Origin: Turneriella parva DSM 21527
Lineage (GTDB): Bacteria > Spirochaetota > Leptospiria > Turneriellales > Turneriellaceae
DNA: 64,000 nucleotides
Direction of reading: 5' to 3'
Assembly: GCF_000266885.1 (NCBI RefSeq)
Contig: NC_018020.1
Span: forward strand, 2,356,001 to 2,420,000
A program made the position numbers and the translations under genes. Shown in pieces: positions 26,862-55,650 of the stretch. The number at the start of each line of letters is the position of its first letter. Positions within the stretch are counted from its first letter, which is position 1. The notes beneath the pieces were generated by a model, which was not told where the DNA came from, did no database searches, and was given only the letters and a program-made list of their open reading frames with translations.

Positions 26862-28040
26862 TTAAACCGGGGCGGGGTGGGTTCTGTTTTCGCGGGCGAT
26901 GACCTGCGCTGCGACAACAATTTCGTGTTCGCTTGAAAAGCGGCCCAAGCTGATTCTGAGCGCACCCTCTATCAGGTCTTTCGGCAACCGCATCGCTTTG
27001 AGCACTTGCGAAGGCCGCTCAGAGCCCGAGCTACAGGCGGCCCCCGTTGAAATTGCGATTTCATCGCGTATACGGGCAATAAGCTGCTTATTGTTCAAAC
27101 CCGGCAACGAAACATGCAGGGCACCCGCTACGCGATTTTCTAGATCGCCATTGACTACCAGCTGCGGCAATTGCGAGGCGAGTTTGTTTTGCAGCAGGTC
27201 ACGTAACGACCTAGTGCGGTGTGCTTCAATTTCTTGCTCTTCGCACGCAATCTGCAGCGCGAACCCAAGGGCTGCAATGAGCGGAGCGTTGATCGTGCCC
27301 GGCCTGAGTGACCTCTGCTGGCCGCCGCCGAAGAAGAGCGGCTTTACCGGAATCGATTTGTCGGCGACGAGCACACCAATACCTTTTGGTGCGTAGAACT
27401 TGTGCCCTGAAAAAGCGACCACTGTATCGGGCAAGCTGGCGAGTGAAAATGGAATTTTGCCAATCGCCTGCGTTGCATCGCAGAAGTAGAGAGCGCGGTG
27501 TTCACTTGCGATTGCCGCGATACGATCGGTCGGGTAGATGTTACCGGTTTCATTGTTCACCGCCATATTGCAGAAGAGATCCACACCCGATTTTGCGAGA
27601 TTTTCTAGCTGGTGTAGATTGATGCGGCCATGCTGGTCAACATCCAGAGTTGCGAGGTCAATTGAGCCTGCAGCTTGAAGCGCGTGAAGATTCTCGAGCA
27701 CTGCCGGGTGCTCGATGGGTGAGGTGATTACTTTAAGTTTGCGCCCCAAACGAACCAATTGAGCGGCGGCAAAACCCTGCAGAAACAGGCTGATACTCTC
27801 GGTTGCTCCCGAGGTGAAGGTGATTTCGCCAGGGTCGCAGGCAATCAGGTCGGCGATCTTTTCTCGGCTCGCTTTCACGAGCCTCGCGGCCGCGCTGCCG
27901 AAGTCATGGTCGACGCTCGAAGGGTTGCCGTAGTTTTCTTTAAGTATCTGGCAATAGTAGTCGAGCACGCGTGGATCGACCGGGGTGGTCGAGAAATAGT
28001 CTAGATATATGCCATGTCTGACAGCTTCGCTGTCAGACAT
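26862..28040 (-). CDS. sspA: Cysteine desulfurase of the phosphorothioation operon (SspA/DndA type)
   Basis: 392 aa class V PLP enzyme. It has YLDYFSTTPVDPRVLDYY, TFTSGATESISLFLQ, the PLP lysine in VAFSGHKFYAPKGIGVL, and the catalytic Cys loop STGAACSSGSERPSQVLKAM. It supplies sulfur to the SspD/DndC-type protein. The start overlaps the sspD stop (ATGTCTGA) and the initiation region is a perfect 14-bp hairpin. An IscS/NifS housekeeping role is possible, but co-transcription with sspBCD argues for the modification pathway. Confidence 0.88.
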   Translation of the reverse strand: MSDSEAVRHGIYLDYFSTTPVDPRVLDYYCQILKENYGNPSSVDHDFGSAAARLVKASREKIADLIACDPGEITFTSGATESISLFLQGFAAAQLVRLGRKLKVITSPIEHPAVLENLHALQAAGSIDLATLDVDQHGRINLHQLENLAKSGVDLFCNMAVNNETGNIYPTDRIAAIASEHRALYFCDATQAIGKIPFSLASLPDTVVAFSGHKFYAPKGIGVLVADKSIPVKPLFFGGGQQRSLRPGTINAPLIAALGFALQIACEEQEIEAHRTRSLRDLLQNKLASQLPQLVVNGDLENRVAGALHVSLPGLNNKQLIARIRDEIAISTGAACSSGSERPSQVLKAMRLPKDLIEGALRISLGRFSSEHEIVVAAQVIARENRTHPAPV

Positions 28041-28043
28041 GGC
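28011..28043. other. Perfect hairpin covering the sspD stop / sspA start
   Basis: Arms of 14 bp (GCCATGTCTGACAG and CTGTCAGACATGGC) around a 5-nt loop. In the minus-strand mRNA the sspA start codon lies in the 5' arm and codons 1-10 of sspA make up the rest, so folding would compete with initiation unless ribosomes arrive from sspD. Confidence 0.85.
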
Positions 28044-28878
28044 AAACTACACAGCCTTCTTCTTGATCTTCGCCGTCGAGAACGCCCTCGAGTACTTCGG
28101 CGAGAGTTTTGTTAGGTTTGCGCTGCTTCTGCAGCTTCACGCGCTTTTCGTGCTCTGCAATGATCTGGTCTTTGCGGGCAATAAGTTCATCGAGTGATTC
28201 ATCCTGGCTCCAGGTATAGCGACGACCATCGGGTAAAACTTTTTCGAAACTCTTGGCCTTTTCGAAAAGTCCCGGGTGATTTTCTGCCAGCCTCACCCAT
28301 TCAATCTTGCGCTGAAAGAAACAAAAATAGCAGCCCGAGCGTGATCGCCAGCTGTAATATTTGGGCATGCCGATGCCCGACTCTTCGAGAATGCGTTCGA
28401 CGTCGGGTTTGGTGATACCGGCGTCTTTAAAGGGAAATACAACCTTAATCGTGTCTTTGGTGGCAACGTAACCGCTACGGTCTTCGTCGGCGCGTATGGC
28501 GACGTAACTGATCGCCTCGTCATCGCCGATGAATTCTTCGAGTGGCTTAATTTTCATCTGCACCGTGCACCAGCGCGATTGCGGCGAAGGCAGAAAATCG
28601 TTGTATTTTTCGAGAAAGTGTTTAAAACCCTGAGTTGCGGCGAGGCGTTGCACCTTAATACCAAGCCGGGCCTCGAGGCGGTCGATAAAATCATACGTTT
28701 CAGTCAGCTCTTCGCCGGTGTCGCAGAAGAAATATTCGATATCAGGTACCCTGTCACGCATGTAGACGGCGAGGGCGGCTGAGTCTTTGCCGCCAGAGAT
28801 GCCCAGAATGTGTCGCACTTTTCTCTCAGGCACAATGCCTGACATAGATTTTTGAACAGTGGTGGTTTTGCTAGCCAT
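28033..28878 (-). CDS. sspD: PAPS reductase-like ATP pyrophosphatase, SspD/DndC type
   Basis: 281 aa from the ATG at 28878 (MASKTTTVQKSMSG); this start overlaps the sspC stop by 8 bp. The PP-loop HILGISGGKDSAALAVYM near residues 24-41 binds ATP. Cys residues in RSGCYFCFFQRKIEW and at the extreme C-terminus (EEGCVVCHV) provide four candidate ligands for an iron-sulfur cluster, as in DndC. It is expected to adenylate the DNA backbone phosphate and pass sulfur to it from the desulfurase. Confidence 0.88.
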   Translation of the reverse strand: MASKTTTVQKSMSGIVPERKVRHILGISGGKDSAALAVYMRDRVPDIEYFFCDTGEELTETYDFIDRLEARLGIKVQRLAATQGFKHFLEKYNDFLPSPQSRWCTVQMKIKPLEEFIGDDEAISYVAIRADEDRSGYVATKDTIKVVFPFKDAGITKPDVERILEESGIGMPKYYSWRSRSGCYFCFFQRKIEWVRLAENHPGLFEKAKSFEKVLPDGRRYTWSQDESLDELIARKDQIIAEHEKRVKLQKQRKPNKTLAEVLEGVLDGEDQEEGCVVCHV

Positions 28879-43142: not shown

Positions 43143-43853
43143 ATGCATATCATCTCGATGACCAACGTTCGCAAAGATTACCCGCTCGGCGAAACCACGG
43201 TCAGCGCGCTCAAGGGTGTTAACTTCGCGGTCGAGGCGGGTGACCTGCTCTCGGTGGTGGGGCCCTCGGGTAGCGGCAAGACGACTCTGCTCAACATCAT
43301 CGGCTGTATCGACCGCCCGACGAGCGGCAAGGTTTCAATTGCAGGCCAGGACATCACGACGATGAGCGACGATGCGCTCACCGACCTGCGCCTTTACACG
43401 GTCGGGTTTATTTTCCAGACGTTCAACCTGATCCCGGTGCTCGATGTGCTCGAGAACGTGGAGTTCCCGATGCTGCTGATGAAAGATAACAAGTTCTCGA
43501 AAGCTGAAATCAAAGAGCGTGCCGAGCACCTGATCGAAGAGGTGGGCCTGACCGCACAGCTGAAGCAGCGCCCGGCGGAGCTCTCGGGTGGGCAGCGGCA
43601 GCGCGTCGCGATTGCGCGTGCGCTCGTGACCAACCCCAAGATCGTGCTCGCCGACGAGCCGACGGCCAACCTCGATTCAGACACGGGCCACAAGATTCTC
43701 GAACTGATGCGCCGACTGAATGAACAGCATAAGACGACGTTTGTATTCTCGACGCACGACCCCGACGTGCTGCAGTATGCTCGCCATGTTGTAAAAATTC
43801 GTGACGGGCTTGTCGTGGCCGACAAGCCCGTCACGAAAAAAAGAAAAAAATGA
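43143..43853 (+). CDS. ABC transporter ATPase, LolD/MacB type
   Basis: 236 aa. Walker A VVGPSGSGKTTLLNIIG, the family-typical DLRLYTVGFIFQTFNLIPVL Q-loop, signature LSGGQRQRVAIARAL, Walker B KIVLADEPTANLDS, and H-loop FVFSTHDPDVLQYA. It powers the two FtsX-type permeases encoded next. Strong ribosome site AAAGGAGAA. The stop overlaps the permease start (ATGA), and the end of the gene is a long hairpin. Confidence 0.95.
   Translation: MHIISMTNVRKDYPLGETTVSALKGVNFAVEAGDLLSVVGPSGSGKTTLLNIIGCIDRPTSGKVSIAGQDITTMSDDALTDLRLYTVGFIFQTFNLIPVLDVLENVEFPMLLMKDNKFSKAEIKERAEHLIEEVGLTAQLKQRPAELSGGQRQRVAIARALVTNPKIVLADEPTANLDSDTGHKILELMRRLNEQHKTTFVFSTHDPDVLQYARHVVKIRDGLVVADKPVTKKRKK
43798..43837. other. 18-bp-arm hairpin at the end of the ATPase gene
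   Basis: TTCGTGACGGGCTTGTCG (43798-43815) and its exact complement (43820-43837) around a TGGC loop, followed by an A-rich stretch and the next start codon at 43850. It encodes IRDGLVVADKPVTK at the ATPase C-terminus. Confidence 0.85.
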
Positions 43854-45373
43854 AGATCGCGTTCACCATCGCGGCACGCAACCTGCTCCGCCACAAGGGC
43901 AAGAGCCTGGTGATCGGAGCGATTCTGTTTTTGGGAGCGCTGATCATGACGCTCGGCAATGCCGTGATTGGCGGCATGAACCGCGGCCTCAGCGAAAACA
44001 TCGTCGAGCGTTTTACCGGGCATATCGTCGTGATTTCCGACACGCAGGAAAATCCTAATATTCTCTTCACCCCGATGGGCAAGGACATCGCCCTGATTAA
44101 ACATTTCGACCGGGTCAAGGGTGTGCTCACGGGCCAGCAGCAGATTGCCGGCTACGTGCCAGCGGGCCGTGGCTTTAGCCTCGTGCTCACCGAAGAGGGC
44201 GATATCGACTTCGCGATGCTGTTGGGCGTCGACTTTCCTGCCTACAACGCTATGTTTAAAGAAAACGTTAAGCTCGTCGAGGGCAAGCTGCTTGGCCCTG
44301 AGGAGCGCGGTATGCTGGTGAGCCAGGGGCGCCGCACGCGTTTCTTCAATGACCAGAATATCTGGCTGAAGCCTGCGGGTTTTGCACTCGAAGAAAAGAA
44401 CTTTTCCGACGAGGCGAAGAAGTACCGCGACAAGATGATCGTCAAAGATTCGCTCGTGCTCATGGGTGCTTCGGGCGATTCGACGGCGTTCGATGTGCGC
44501 GCCGACATCAAGGGTATCGTGCGCTACGAGTTTCTCGACGACTACTGGAAGTTCTTCAACATCATGGACATCGAAACTTTTCGCGAATGTTTCCAGTGGG
44601 TGACATCGAGCGATGCTGCGCAGAATATCAGGGCCGATACCAAGGCGCTCATGGCGCAGAGCGAAAACCTCGATGCCCTCTTCAATGAAGCAACCGTGGT
44701 GTCGTCAAACGTCGGCAAGGCTGAAATCTCGAAGAGTCTGAAAAAGCTCAAACAGAAATCCGCCGCGCAGAAGGTGCTCACCGACGCGGGGGCATACAAC
44801 GTCGTTTTTGTAAAACTCAAAGACGGCTATGACATCGACAAGGGCGTGCGCGAACTCAACGCTGCGTTCAAGGCCGCGGAGGCCCCCGCGCAGGCGGTGA
44901 CCTGGCAGAAGGCCATTGGCCAGCTGGGCGACATGGCAGGTATCATACGCGGTGCGCTCATCGGTTTTGTCTTCTTTATCTTCTTTGTCGCGATCATCAT
45001 CATCATGAACACCCTCTCGATGGCGGCGCTCGAGCGCACTGCCGAGCTGGGTATGATGCGCGCGGTGGGGGCGCAAAAGCGCTTTGTGACCTGGATGTTC
45101 CTGGTCGAAACCGCCTGCCTGGCGCTGCTCTTCGGCGGCGCCGGCATTGTCCTGGGTTCGCTCGCAGTGCCGGTGCTCAAGGCCATGAAAATTACCGCAG
45201 AAAACAACATTCTGCAGTTGCTCTTCGGAGGCAAGACGTTCGCGCCATACCTCAGCGCCGGCGACATTGTCTTCGGCGTGGCGGAGCTCGCCTGGGTTAC
45301 AGTCATGGCAGCGATTTATCCGATTATTGTCGCGCGGCGCATTACACCGCTCGATGCCATTTCGAGGGATTGA
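43850..45373 (+). CDS. FtsX-type ABC permease (LolC/E-like), first of two
   Basis: 507 aa. One N-terminal membrane segment (LVIGAILFLGALIMTLGNAV), a large periplasmic MacB-type domain of about 340 residues, then three membrane segments (about 365-395, 415-440, 475-500), the FtsX topology. A RNLLRHKGKSL start is typical. It pairs with the second permease and the LolD-like ATPase, presumably to extract lipoproteins or drive another outer-membrane delivery step. Confidence 0.9.
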   Translation: MKIAFTIAARNLLRHKGKSLVIGAILFLGALIMTLGNAVIGGMNRGLSENIVERFTGHIVVISDTQENPNILFTPMGKDIALIKHFDRVKGVLTGQQQIAGYVPAGRGFSLVLTEEGDIDFAMLLGVDFPAYNAMFKENVKLVEGKLLGPEERGMLVSQGRRTRFFNDQNIWLKPAGFALEEKNFSDEAKKYRDKMIVKDSLVLMGASGDSTAFDVRADIKGIVRYEFLDDYWKFFNIMDIETFRECFQWVTSSDAAQNIRADTKALMAQSENLDALFNEATVVSSNVGKAEISKSLKKLKQKSAAQKVLTDAGAYNVVFVKLKDGYDIDKGVRELNAAFKAAEAPAQAVTWQKAIGQLGDMAGIIRGALIGFVFFIFFVAIIIIMNTLSMAALERTAELGMMRAVGAQKRFVTWMFLVETACLALLFGGAGIVLGSLAVPVLKAMKITAENNILQLLFGGKTFAPYLSAGDIVFGVAELAWVTVMAAIYPIIVARRITPLDAISRD

Positions 45374-45374
45374 T

Positions 45375-47147
45375 ATGCAACGCCTGAAACTCCTCTTCTC
45401 GCTCGCGTTTCGCAACCTGGTGCGCCAGCGCCGGCGCAACATGCTGTTGGGTGTAGCCCTTGCTTTCGGTACCATGATCCTCGTGGTCGCCAATGCGTTC
45501 TCGAGCGGCATCACCGACACGCTGCTGAACAAGATTGTCGTGCAGATGACCGGCCACCTCGAACTCGCGGTGATTGAGCGCGCACGGGCGCAGAACCTGC
45601 TGATACGCGACCGCGAATTCTACCTTAACCTGCTCAAGACCAACCTGCCCGAAATTCGCGAGGTTGCCGAGAATGTTGCCGTGTTCTCGCGCGCGATCGG
45701 TGTGGGTAAGGGCGAAAACGTGATCGTGGTTCCTGTCGATCTCGGTGAGAAAGCTGACCCTGCTACTTCAGCTGATGCCGAGTACCTGGTGAGCCGCGCG
45801 GTCGAGGGCAACGTGGCCGACCTGCTTTCGCCGCAGTACGAAAATCCAGTCGCGGTTTTTGCCGATAAGGCCAAGGCACTCAATATCAAACTGCTCGATA
45901 CACTTAAGATGCGGCTCAAGACCGTGAGCGGGCAGGAACAGAGCGCGCGGTTCACCGTCGTGATGCTGCTTAAATCAGAGAGCATGTTTGAAAGTGGCGC
46001 ACTCTTCTTGCCGCTAAAGAACCTCAAAGACCTGCGCGGTATTCGCGCGAATGAAACAGGGTCGCTGCAGGTGACATTCAAGAAGTTCGATTCGCCGCGC
46101 TCGGTCATTCGTATGGCCGACAAGCTGCACAGCCTGCTGAAGCCGCAGGTGGCCGCGATCGGCGGTGAGCTTGTGGCAGGTAAGAAAAGTGCGCCGGTTA
46201 CAGTAGGGGGATTTACCCAGGAATTTGCGAAATCTCCACAGGTACAAAAGTCTTTCACACTCACCGCGGGTGATTGGTTCAAAGATCGCGACACTGACCA
46301 GGTAGCGCTGAACGAGAGTCTCGCCGAAGCGTTGGCAGTCAGCGAAGGTGATTCTGTAGTCCTGCGCTACCGGTCGATACATAGTGGAGAACCCGTCGAG
46401 CAAACCTTCAATATCGCGGCTGTTCTTTCCGCACAGGACGCTCCGCCGGCCGTAAATGCCTGGCTACCCGAAGCCGGGTTTTACCGTGTTTATCTCGGAG
46501 ATTTGCCAAAAGTGCGCGTGCTACCGGGTGCTGAAAGTCTCAGTGCCGAATGGAAGGCCGTGCTCGCTCCTGATTTCAAAGTGCTGCCGCGCACTTCGAC
46601 CGGCGATGACTTGATGAAGAAGAACCAAGAGTTGCGCAAGACAAACTTCTACGGGCCGGCGATAGATGTGCGCACGATGTACGAGAGCGCAAGCCAGGTG
46701 CTTGAGCTCGAAGGAGCGCTCAACCTCATCACGCTCATTGCCGTGCTGATACTCTTTTTGATCATTTTGACCGGGGTTGTGAACACCCTGCGCATGACCA
46801 TACGTGAGCGCACGCGCGAAATCGGCACGATGCGCGCGATCGGCGTGCGTTCGGGCGATGTGCGCAACATCTTTTTGATCGAGACTTTTCAGCTCGCGTT
46901 CTTTTCGGCGGTGACGGGCGTGGTGCTGGCATTCATCGTGATGGCAGTACTGTCTTCGTTTCGTATCGAAACACAGAGCGTGCTGGGTATCTTCTTGAGC
47001 CAGAAGAAGCTCTACTTTCTGCCGCAGGCCGGTGACATATTGCGGAATATCGTGATGATCTTGCTGGTGTCTACCGCGACCGCATACTTTCCATCAAGGA
47101 GAGCGGCCAAGCTCGACCCAGCTGAGGCTTTGAGACACTTCGAGTAG
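45375..47147 (+). CDS. FtsX-type ABC permease (LolC/E-like), second of two
   Basis: 590 aa from the ATG at 45375 (MQRLKLLFSLAFRNLVRQRR), immediately after the first permease; the longer open frame into that gene is ignored. N-terminal membrane segment MLLGVALAFGTMILVVANAF, a long periplasmic domain, then three C-terminal segments (LITLIAVLILFLIILTGVV, ETFQLAFFSAVTGVVLAFIV, NIVMILLVSTATAYF) with TRREIGTMRAIG-like coupling sequence (RTREIGTMRAIGVRSGDV). Confidence 0.9.
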   Translation: MQRLKLLFSLAFRNLVRQRRRNMLLGVALAFGTMILVVANAFSSGITDTLLNKIVVQMTGHLELAVIERARAQNLLIRDREFYLNLLKTNLPEIREVAENVAVFSRAIGVGKGENVIVVPVDLGEKADPATSADAEYLVSRAVEGNVADLLSPQYENPVAVFADKAKALNIKLLDTLKMRLKTVSGQEQSARFTVVMLLKSESMFESGALFLPLKNLKDLRGIRANETGSLQVTFKKFDSPRSVIRMADKLHSLLKPQVAAIGGELVAGKKSAPVTVGGFTQEFAKSPQVQKSFTLTAGDWFKDRDTDQVALNESLAEALAVSEGDSVVLRYRSIHSGEPVEQTFNIAAVLSAQDAPPAVNAWLPEAGFYRVYLGDLPKVRVLPGAESLSAEWKAVLAPDFKVLPRTSTGDDLMKKNQELRKTNFYGPAIDVRTMYESASQVLELEGALNLITLIAVLILFLIILTGVVNTLRMTIRERTREIGTMRAIGVRSGDVRNIFLIETFQLAFFSAVTGVVLAFIVMAVLSSFRIETQSVLGIFLSQKKLYFLPQAGDILRNIVMILLVSTATAYFPSRRAAKLDPAEALRHFE

Positions 47148-47159
47148 TCAGGAGAAAAT

Positions 47160-47915
47160 ATGAAAAAATACATCATTGTGGTATTGTTCTTCACGCAATA
47201 TGGCATTCACGCCAAAGGCGTGAATGCCATATTGCAGGAAATCGACAAACGCATGTCGCAGATCAGCGACTTCTCTGCAAAGGTTGCCCTGACGCAGCAG
47301 AAGGTCGGGCAGGGCGTGAAGAACTTTGAAACACTGTTCTTTCGCCGCGACGAGGGTGACGAGTTCCTCATGGTGACAACCGCCCCGCAGTCAGAGAAGG
47401 GTAACGGCTACCTGCGTACCGGCAACAACTTCTGGATGTACCGGCAGAACACGCGCACGTTCCAGCACATCAACCGCGACGAGAGCATCAACGGTACCGA
47501 CACCAAGGCAGGCGACTTCGAGCGTAAAAAAACCACCGAACTCTACAAGCCATACGTCGATGCCAACGGCAAAGAAGACATTACCGAAGAAATGCTCGGC
47601 AACAAGAAGGTGTGGAAGTTTACCGTGGTGGCCAAGGTGCGTGACGTCACCTACCCGAAACAGGTCTACTGGGTCGAGCAGGGCACTTACCTGCAGCTGA
47701 AGGTGCAGTCGTATTCACTATCCGGTACGCTCATGCAGACGGCGTACTTCATCAAGTACACGCAGATCGAGGGGAAGTACATTTTGCTCAAAGGTATGTT
47801 CGTCGATGAATTCGAAAAGGGCAACAAGACGGTGCTCGAAATCTCGGGTGTTTCGCTCAAGAAGCTCGATTCGAAGATATTCACGAAGGCTTACCTCGAG
47901 AACCTGAGTAAATAG
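47160..47915 (+). CDS. LolA-like outer-membrane lipoprotein-sorting protein
   Basis: 251 aa. Signal peptide MKKYIIVVLFFTQYGIHAKG, ribosome site AGGAGA. The mature part (FSAKVALTQQKVGQGVKNFE, FWMYRQNTRTFQHI, VYWVEQGTYLQLKVQSY) is the COG2834-type LolA-like fold used as periplasmic carrier. As fourth gene of the operon it should accept substrate from the LolCDE-like transporter. The signal-peptide end is encoded by a perfect 19-bp-arm hairpin. Confidence 0.88.
   Translation: MKKYIIVVLFFTQYGIHAKGVNAILQEIDKRMSQISDFSAKVALTQQKVGQGVKNFETLFFRRDEGDEFLMVTTAPQSEKGNGYLRTGNNFWMYRQNTRTFQHINRDESINGTDTKAGDFERKKTTELYKPYVDANGKEDITEEMLGNKKVWKFTVVAKVRDVTYPKQVYWVEQGTYLQLKVQSYSLSGTLMQTAYFIKYTQIEGKYILLKGMFVDEFEKGNKTVLEISGVSLKKLDSKIFTKAYLENLSK
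47195..47235. other. 19-bp-arm perfect hairpin across the signal peptide cleavage codons
   Basis: GCAATATGGCATTCACGCC (47195-47213), loop AAA, and its exact complement (47217-47235). It encodes QYGIHAKGVNAILQ of the LolA-like protein. Confidence 0.9.
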
Positions 47916-47916
47916 C

Positions 47917-49257
47917 GTGCGGCGGAGTTTATTTGTGTTTTCAATTTTATCCACTTGCGCGTACGCGCAAGTGGATAAAATTGATGAAAACCAGTTGTTC
48001 TCCGAAGGTGAAACCGTCACACCGGTTGAAAAGGTGACCGACGACAAACTGCAGGATTCTACCGACAAAGAATCGGTCTCTTTTTCCGGCGCAATCAACA
48101 GCCGAAACTCTTACTCGATGAACCGCGACTGGCTGACAGGTAACAACGCGTCGACGGCGCAAAATAACCTGAATAACCAGATACAGACCAACATGCTGCT
48201 CGAGGCCCGCGCGCGCCGCAGCACCAAGGCCGTGGTCAACGTGGTCAATAATGTCTATGCACAGGGCCGCAGCGAACAGCGCACCTTCCAGGACGTTACC
48301 ACCGGTGCGACCACGCGTGTGAATGAGACTGTCTATTATGACTTTCGTTTTACTGAGGCCTTCGTTGATACCAACATCGCGCGCGCGGTGTATTTTCGCG
48401 CGGGTAAGCAGGTGCTCGTGTGGGGACGTGGATTCTTCTGGAATCCTTCTGATGTTATCAACGCCGAGCTGCGCAGTGCCACCGACGCGTTCCAGTTTCG
48501 CGAGGGTACGTACGGCCTGCGCGCGCACGTTCCGATCGGCAGTAGCCTCAACTTCTATTCGTTCACCGGCGTCGGTCGCAGCAACCGGGCTGAAGACATG
48601 CTGCAGGCGTTCAAAGCCGAAGTCGCCTTCAGGCGTGCCGAGGTTGCGACGGGTGTGATCATGGGCCAGCGCAAGGTACCGACATGGCTTGCCGAAGCGA
48701 GTACGCGTTTTCTGACGCTCGACTGGCGAGCCGAGGTTACGTATGCCTACGGCGACAACGCTTACCGTATCGACCCCAACACTTTCAACCCGCTGTTGCC
48801 GGTAACCTACCAGCTGCGCGAGCAGCACGTGTTCAAAGGCGTGCTCAGTTTCGGGCGGAGCTTCGAGGTTTTCGACGTCGCCGACCGTCTAGGCATCAAC
48901 TTCGAATATTTTTACAACGGCGCCGGCTATAAAGAAAATGTGTTTGAGCAGAACCCACTGGTACGCGCGTACTTCGTGCAGAACGGCCTCTACCGCCCTA
49001 ACTTCTATGGTATGCACTATGCGGGCCTCTTTGTTACTTACGCACGTTTCTTTGTGCAAGATTTGACTCTCGGTCTGAATGCGCTCAGCAACCTCAGCGA
49101 CAAGACCATGATTCTTTCGCAGCTCTTCACCTATAACCCGCTCTTTAACCTGACGCTTACTTGGCAGAACAACATTTTTACCGGCAGGCCGAATGGCGAA
49201 TATACGGTCAGCGGTTTAGGGTGGTACACCGAATTTTCGGCACGAGTAAGCTTTTGA
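47917..49257 (+). CDS. Outer-membrane beta-barrel protein of the LolCDE-like operon
   Basis: 446 aa from a GTG one base after the previous stop. A short signal (RSLFVFSILSTCAYAQVD) precedes a barrel-like body of alternating strands (VNETVYYDFRFTEAFVDTNI, ARAVYFRAGKQVLVWGRGFF) ending in WYTEFSARVSF with a terminal Phe. 'GKQVLVWGRGFFWNPSDVIN' resembles DUF1302-type porin-like proteins. It may be the outer-membrane end of the export route or its cargo. Its signal peptide codons are a 44-bp perfect palindrome and its 3' end is a terminator hairpin. Confidence 0.8.
   Translation: MRRSLFVFSILSTCAYAQVDKIDENQLFSEGETVTPVEKVTDDKLQDSTDKESVSFSGAINSRNSYSMNRDWLTGNNASTAQNNLNNQIQTNMLLEARARRSTKAVVNVVNNVYAQGRSEQRTFQDVTTGATTRVNETVYYDFRFTEAFVDTNIARAVYFRAGKQVLVWGRGFFWNPSDVINAELRSATDAFQFREGTYGLRAHVPIGSSLNFYSFTGVGRSNRAEDMLQAFKAEVAFRRAEVATGVIMGQRKVPTWLAEASTRFLTLDWRAEVTYAYGDNAYRIDPNTFNPLLPVTYQLREQHVFKGVLSFGRSFEVFDVADRLGINFEYFYNGAGYKENVFEQNPLVRAYFVQNGLYRPNFYGMHYAGLFVTYARFFVQDLTLGLNALSNLSDKTMILSQLFTYNPLFNLTLTWQNNIFTGRPNGEYTVSGLGWYTEFSARVSF
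47941..47984. other. 44-bp perfect palindrome in the signal peptide codons
   Basis: Left half TCAATTTTATCCACTTGCGC then GT, right half its exact complement with no loop (centre between 47962 and 47963). It encodes SILSTCAYAQVDKID, spanning the predicted AYA cleavage site. Confidence 0.92.
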
Positions 49258-49292
49258 GCGTTTCCCGTTAGGGAATCGCTCAAAAGCTTACT
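49245..49292. terminator. Bidirectional terminator hairpin
   Basis: AGTAAGCTTTTGAGCG (49245-49260) pairs with 49277-49292; an inner TTCCC-GTTA-GGGAA extends the stem after one mismatch. It overlaps the stop codon of the barrel gene and lies between two convergent genes, with a T-rich stretch (GCAATTTT) on the right side. Confidence 0.8.
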
Positions 49293-55560: not shown

Positions 55561-55650
55561 ATGTCCCCCTCCCGACCTCCCCCGCTTGCGGGGGAGGCGG
55601 GTCTTGCGCCCCTCCCCGCAAGCGGGGAGGGGAAGGGGGTGGGGACAAGT
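55561..55650. repeat. Palindromic repeat, family B, copy 2 (double)
   Basis: CTCCCCCGCTTGCGGGGGAG and CCCCTCCCCGCAAGCGGGGA (then GGGG) lie side by side within outer GTCCCC/GGGGAC flanks. The element fills the gap between the solute-binding and enoyl-CoA hydratase genes, so an ATG overlapping the hydratase stop now reads through it in frame. Confidence 0.85.

Follow-up and report, generated by a model that had tools for sequence, protein, structure and literature searches.

Why a long perfect palindrome should lie among the signal-peptide codons of a bacterial gene is the question raised by a 64,000-nt stretch of the Turneriella parva genome (referred to below as the window). The initial annotation described a loop-free palindrome of 44 bp across a signal-peptidase site, and this description was confirmed. 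The sequence (TCAATTTTATCCACTTGCGCGT/ACGCGCAAGTGGATAAAATTGA) is composed of two 100% complementary arms (22+22 nt), which abut with a spacer of 0 nt; it is the sole palindrome of such length within the window and spans the predicted cleavage site AYA/Q, from codon 9 onward. Folded as RNA, it forms a 20-bp stem with a GUAC loop and a fold energy of approximately -34 kcal/mol (z = -9.4; equalled by 0 of 200 shuffles). The hairpin begins 24 nt inside the gene that starts at 47917 and 25 nt beyond the stop at 47915.

The surrounding operon and its hairpins are listed in Table 1. The gene that carries the palindrome has no Pfam family and, judging from its sequence, probably encodes an outer-membrane protein. 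The initial annotation also held that two consecutive genes contain such structures at equivalent sites, which proved correct for their position (the companion hairpin occupies the corresponding site of the LolA-like gene) but not for their form, as the companion has a 3-nt spacer and is not loop-free. The tight packing of the genes, with gaps of 1 and 12 nt, is what brings both hairpins into signal-peptide codons. Each of the four hairpins of the operon (43798, 47195, 47941 and 49245) folds approximately 9-10 SD below shuffled sequences. Elsewhere in the window (28010-28044), a perfect 16-bp stem of the same class as the focal hairpin lies over the stop/start of two adjoining minus-strand genes. 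A G/C-rich imperfect inverted repeat of low-complexity type (CCCCTCCC.../...GGGGAGGGG; 55565-55642), found also at L058:15891 and in the relatives G003 and G002, looks like a separate dispersed repeat.

Table 1. Genes and hairpins of the operon (window coordinates)
Feature	Position	Strand	Remarks
ABC transporter ATPase (ABC_tran, LolD-like)	43143..43853	+	
Same-class hairpin	43798..43837	+	18-bp perfect stem, 4-nt loop; ends 16 nt before the ATPase gene end and 12 nt before the next gene start
FtsX-type permease	43850..45373	+	
FtsX/MacB-type permease	45375..47147	+	
LolA-like outer membrane lipoprotein-sorting protein (PF17131)	47160..47915	+	Signal peptide ...GIHA/K, assigned by eye
Companion hairpin	47195..47235	+	19-bp perfect stem, 3-nt AAA loop; in signal-peptide codons of the LolA-like gene, at the IHA/K site, 35 nt into the gene and 47 nt past the upstream permease stop
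Probable outer-membrane protein	47917..49257	+	Signal peptide ...CAYA/Q; GTG start one base past the LolA-like stop, start position kept in relatives
Focal hairpin	47941..47984	+	Codons 9-23 of the outer-membrane-protein gene; 25 nt past the LolA-like stop
Same-class hairpin	49245..49292	+	22-nt arms, one mismatch, 4-nt loop; across the stop of the outer-membrane-protein gene

Within 464 kb of the genome, 40 stems of at least 12 bp were observed, compared with 0 in first-order Markov resamples of the same dinucleotide make-up; long stems are therefore a property of this genome and require a cause. The shared cause that the initial annotation proposed for the two hairpins is borne out in so far as both fall within this genome-wide class. 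The focal sequence itself is single copy (whole-genome matches of the region are limited to itself and its own reverse complement), which rules out a dispersed repeat (REP, RPE or similar) or a mobile palindrome at this site. A known RNA family was rejected as well: the Rfam matches were all sub-threshold and mostly microRNA-like, as is expected for any long perfect stem.

The genome contains other palindromes of various types. Two are dispersed and perfect: (i) GCCCCCGAATTAATTCGGGGGC, with 8 exact copies and one containing a mismatch (e.g., L034:2120-2155, L034:8641-8676 and L083:4800-4835), whose flanking complementary bases vary by copy, and (ii) GTAGGGGTAGGTTTAAACCTACCCCTAC, with 12 exact copies and one containing a mismatch (e.g., L020:3444-3493 and L026:8805-8850). 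The arms of the latter (25 and 23 nt) run past the shared core with locus-specific complementary bases and are thus not explained by a plain repeat. A family of numerous 34-nt imperfect palindromes (TTTTGACTTGCTGCGAAGACACAGCAAGTCAAAA and its kin) in L106-L108 (C1, approximately 3.50-3.66 Mb) and in L133 of the relative G006 has the look of attC sites belonging to a large integron cassette array. The stem GTTCAGCTCGGCTAAGCCGAGCTGAAC at L113:12301-12327, whose surroundings resemble a tmRNA gene, shows a paired change in G006 (L122).

The survey for the location of the stems covered 1.664 Mb (38%) of the T. parva genome, which comprises 4,409,302 bp in two contigs, in agreement with the published size for strain H (PMC3746428). 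The 167 stems of at least 12 bp found there have their 5' edges clustered near stop codons, between positions -20 and +40, with 44 in the bin from -20 to -1, 44 from 0 to 19, 15 from 20 to 39, and at most 6 per bin beyond, a hairpin between convergent genes being scored for both. Where convergent genes lie 10-200 nt apart, 20-27% of the stops bear such a stem; the values are 2-13% for codirectional stops and 2-8% for starts, all as defined by a simple script-based gene caller that placed some starts wrongly (the focal gene at 47935). An equal frequency at random coding positions, which would have refuted the initial annotation, was not observed: such stems were found in only 7 of 5363 mid-gene windows, compared with 7/340 gene starts (first 130 nt) close behind a same-strand gene, the value for the other starts being 3/820 (Fisher p = 0.009).

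The suggested link to the signal peptide was not upheld. None of the 234 signal-peptide genes lacking a same-strand gene directly upstream has a stem of at least 12 bp in the first 130 nt, which, together with the enrichment at stops, ties the stems to the stop of the gene before and rules out a signal-peptide-specific role. Further signal-peptide genes arranged alike carry hairpins at L094:3170-3208 and L031:6060-6090 (14 and 30 nt past the preceding stop, respectively). The signal-peptide cases of L058 and L083 are dispersed or low-complexity repeats and have to be set aside; when these are omitted and the focal gene is scored as a signal-peptide gene, the contrast weakens to 4/121 versus 0/234 (p ~0.013), and it becomes 2/119 versus 0/234 (p ~0.11) when the two focal genes are omitted in addition. 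Divergent intergenic DNA is also fairly rich in long stems (21 in 29.7 kb), so that the position at stops is not the full account.

No T-run is present downstream of position 47984 (the sequence 3' of the focal hairpin is TGAAAACC), and the focal hairpin thus lacks the U-run of an intrinsic terminator. The stop-associated stems as a class are likewise devoid of a U-tract, with a mean of 2.25 T in the next 8 positions. At the convergent stops of T. parva, U-tract hairpins amount to 4.1% (2.1% in control stretches), and U-less stems of at least 10 bp to 15.5% (0.3% in control stretches). In a small, 150-kb control sample of Escherichia coli, U-tract hairpins were found at 21% of convergent stops, compared with 4% in T. 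parva; U-less stems of at least 10 bp occur there too, at 18%, so that only the shortage of U-tracts sets T. parva apart.

The relatives used for comparison (G001, G002, G003 and G006) are fragmented metagenome assemblies. In the closest of them, G003, the outer-membrane protein and the LolA-like protein share 92 and 88% identity, respectively, with those of T. parva, and the focal and companion sites read ATTTTTTCTGTCGGCGCGTATGCGCAGACAGAAAAAAT and GCAGAATCTGGTGCACGCTGTCGGGGTGAACCAGATTCTGC. For the focal hairpin, 14 pairs are the same in both species, 5 are changed on both sides, 1 has become G-U and 2 are broken; the respective numbers for the companion are 10, 6 (including a run of 4 adjacent pairs), 1 and 2. 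Both hairpins thus keep their pairing through changes on both arms, in agreement with the retained RNA element envisaged in the initial annotation. If the changes of one arm were scattered at random, such pairing would have p ~1e-5 for each of the two hairpins. In a scan of 42,910 aligned columns (126,282 candidate windows), outside which the companion lies, the focal site ranked top for double changes, with 5 compared with at most 3 elsewhere. A strand test of G-U versus A-C mismatches gave 10 versus 6.

The focal arms differ from those of T. parva in both G003 and G002. In the latter, a third species, the focal stem consists of 10 bp plus 4 bp around a mismatched stretch, and pairing and covariation are lost when the partner is slid by 1-3 columns. 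Pairs 38-55 and 39-54 (alignment A1) are mismatched in G002, with one side resembling each of the other species. Within the inner stem, the apparent side of fixation is the right for pair 38-55 and the left for pairs 39-54 and 40-53; the inner pairs hence seem to have been fixed from both sides, with the ancestor of the arms not firmly set by so few species. At the focal site of G001 and G006 the hairpin is absent or unrecognisable. In G002 the hairpin at the end of the ATPase gene is matched by a 16-bp stem of other sequence, and in G001 by a weaker stem of 9 bp.

Other members of the class behave in various ways in G003. The stem of the third signal-peptide hairpin (L094:3170-3208) is kept with 2 double changes, and the G003 contig ends short of the orthologue of the L031 one. 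The stem at L029:7955-7991 is unchanged and that at L062:3559-3600 is unchanged apart from one repaired mismatch, while their flanks differ by 14-22%. Double changes were found at L029:6389-6433 and L056:5435-5472, and the hairpins at 49245-49292, L062:1079-1117 and L056:3697-3737 are not conserved.

Taking these observations together, we regard the focal palindrome, with a probability of roughly 0.55, as an RNA hairpin of the operon transcript that belongs, as a 3' hairpin, to the LolA-like gene upstream and putatively protects it from decay. The hairpin would fall within the first codons of the next gene since only 1 nt parts the two genes, and the signal peptide would merely be a codon stretch loose enough to accommodate it. 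Its best reading is a structure that would block 3'-to-5' decay or partly terminate transcription after the upstream gene. Most likely, transcripts ended by Rho or cleaved by an endonuclease further downstream would be trimmed by 3'-to-5' exonucleases that are halted at the hairpin, and the upstream part of the mRNA would then outlive the part coding for the outer-membrane protein; the companion hairpin would do likewise for the permease genes. Genes encoding Rho and PNPase are present in the T. parva genome. Some termination of transcription at the focal hairpin is possible, as is cutting of the 20-bp duplex by RNase III.

The same stems could instead be functionless products of template switching, i.e., of quasipalindrome correction during replication, in which one arm is copied onto the other and the result is tolerated in signal-peptide codons, gene ends and intergenic DNA, the apparent paired changes being arms corrected separately in each species. 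Template switching is indeed able to give rise to perfect stems, to preserve them and to imitate compensatory change (PMC8794818), and several of its expected traces were found here: perfect inverted repeats with arms that differ from those of G003 at both the focal and the companion site, the 4 adjacent paired changes of the companion, such as a single multi-base event gives, and the two mismatched G002 pairs, which fit an imperfect ancestor corrected differently in each species. The long stems of divergent intergenic DNA are also in line with it. Taken alone, however, neutral switching leaves unexplained why stems cluster at stops over starts and why none occurs in the 234 signal-peptide genes without a close upstream gene; moreover, the inner focal pairs appear to have been fixed from both sides and not in one direction, and in G003 certain stems have stayed the same or improved despite the divergence of their flanks. 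As a complete account it is possible but rather unlikely. As the generator of the stems, the repeated template-switch events named in the initial annotation stay plausible: template switching is a likely source of the stems, the dense stems of divergent intergenic DNA suggesting a mutational supply, and selection, aided by such switching, is the likely reason why pairing has been kept at stops.

A U-less intrinsic terminator or attenuator, at which some transcripts would end once past the LolA-like gene so that the outer-membrane-protein gene is expressed less, seems improbable. It would suit the very stable fold and the position, which is of the same class as that of hairpins at the ends of convergent genes, sites of expected termination, and hairpins without a U-trail, termed "I-shaped" (PMC5335608), have already been proposed as terminators; the focal hairpin nevertheless lacks the U-tract, a defining part of ordinary intrinsic terminators, and Rho is encoded. 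Least credible, in our view, is an element serving the downstream gene, whether by slowing translation or helping export as a hairpin among the signal-peptide codons, or by offering a protein an operator or recombination site. The signal-peptidase site is spanned in two successive genes, and dimeric proteins may bind palindromic DNA, but signal-peptide genes distant from an upstream stop bear no such stem (0/234). The protein-binding or recombination site considered in the initial annotation is unlikely because the focal sequence is unique in the genome and both of its arms differ between species (G003 and G002), unlike a fixed binding sequence.

The reading of the focal palindrome as a 3' hairpin of the LolA-like gene may be extended, although only tentatively, to the whole genome: T. 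parva and its nearest relative may use long, perfect hairpins that lack a U-tract, rather than U-tract terminators, to mark the ends of genes, template switching may keep the stems perfect amid sequence turnover, and even signal-peptide codons may be rewritten for the preceding RNA end. If the 3'-hairpin reading is right, the codons of an exported protein answer to what the preceding gene requires of its RNA, a clear natural case of overlapping information, and a free-living spirochaete would have an unusual route to mRNA 3' ends. The fast paired turnover of the arms in close species also provides a system in which template switching can be tested against two separate mutations.

Among known systems, intrinsic (Rho-independent) terminators share with the T. 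parva hairpins a stable fold near the stop codon and frequent occurrence at convergent gene ends; the focal hairpin differs in its long stem, the absence of a U-tract and its location within an operon and a coding region. Template-switch products (PMC8794818; for bacteria, PMC7202029) are similar in their perfect inverted repeats, arms differing between relatives and runs of adjacent paired changes, but template switching predicts no stop-codon preference, which the T. parva stems show. Perfect inverted repeats within protein-coding genes are also described for Nematomorpha mitochondria (PMC6649704), where, unlike those at bacterial gene boundaries in T. parva, they reach 284 bp. The closest parallel is differential decay of E. 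coli operons (PMC5927463), with malE-malF as the paradigm, in which 17 of 26 structures that shield the upstream part of an operon from 3'-to-5' decay are located inside the next coding sequence, at a mean of 107 +/- 56 nt past its start, and are mostly conserved in relatives. The T. parva hairpins resemble these structures in lying just past the upstream gene and inside the next coding sequence and in lacking a terminator U-tract; both are also kept in G003, and the focal one, in shorter form, in G002, with none found at the focal site of G001 or G006. They differ in their position (24 and 35 nt into the downstream gene) and in their perfect stems of 19-22 bp, whose arms turn over fast while the pairing stays.
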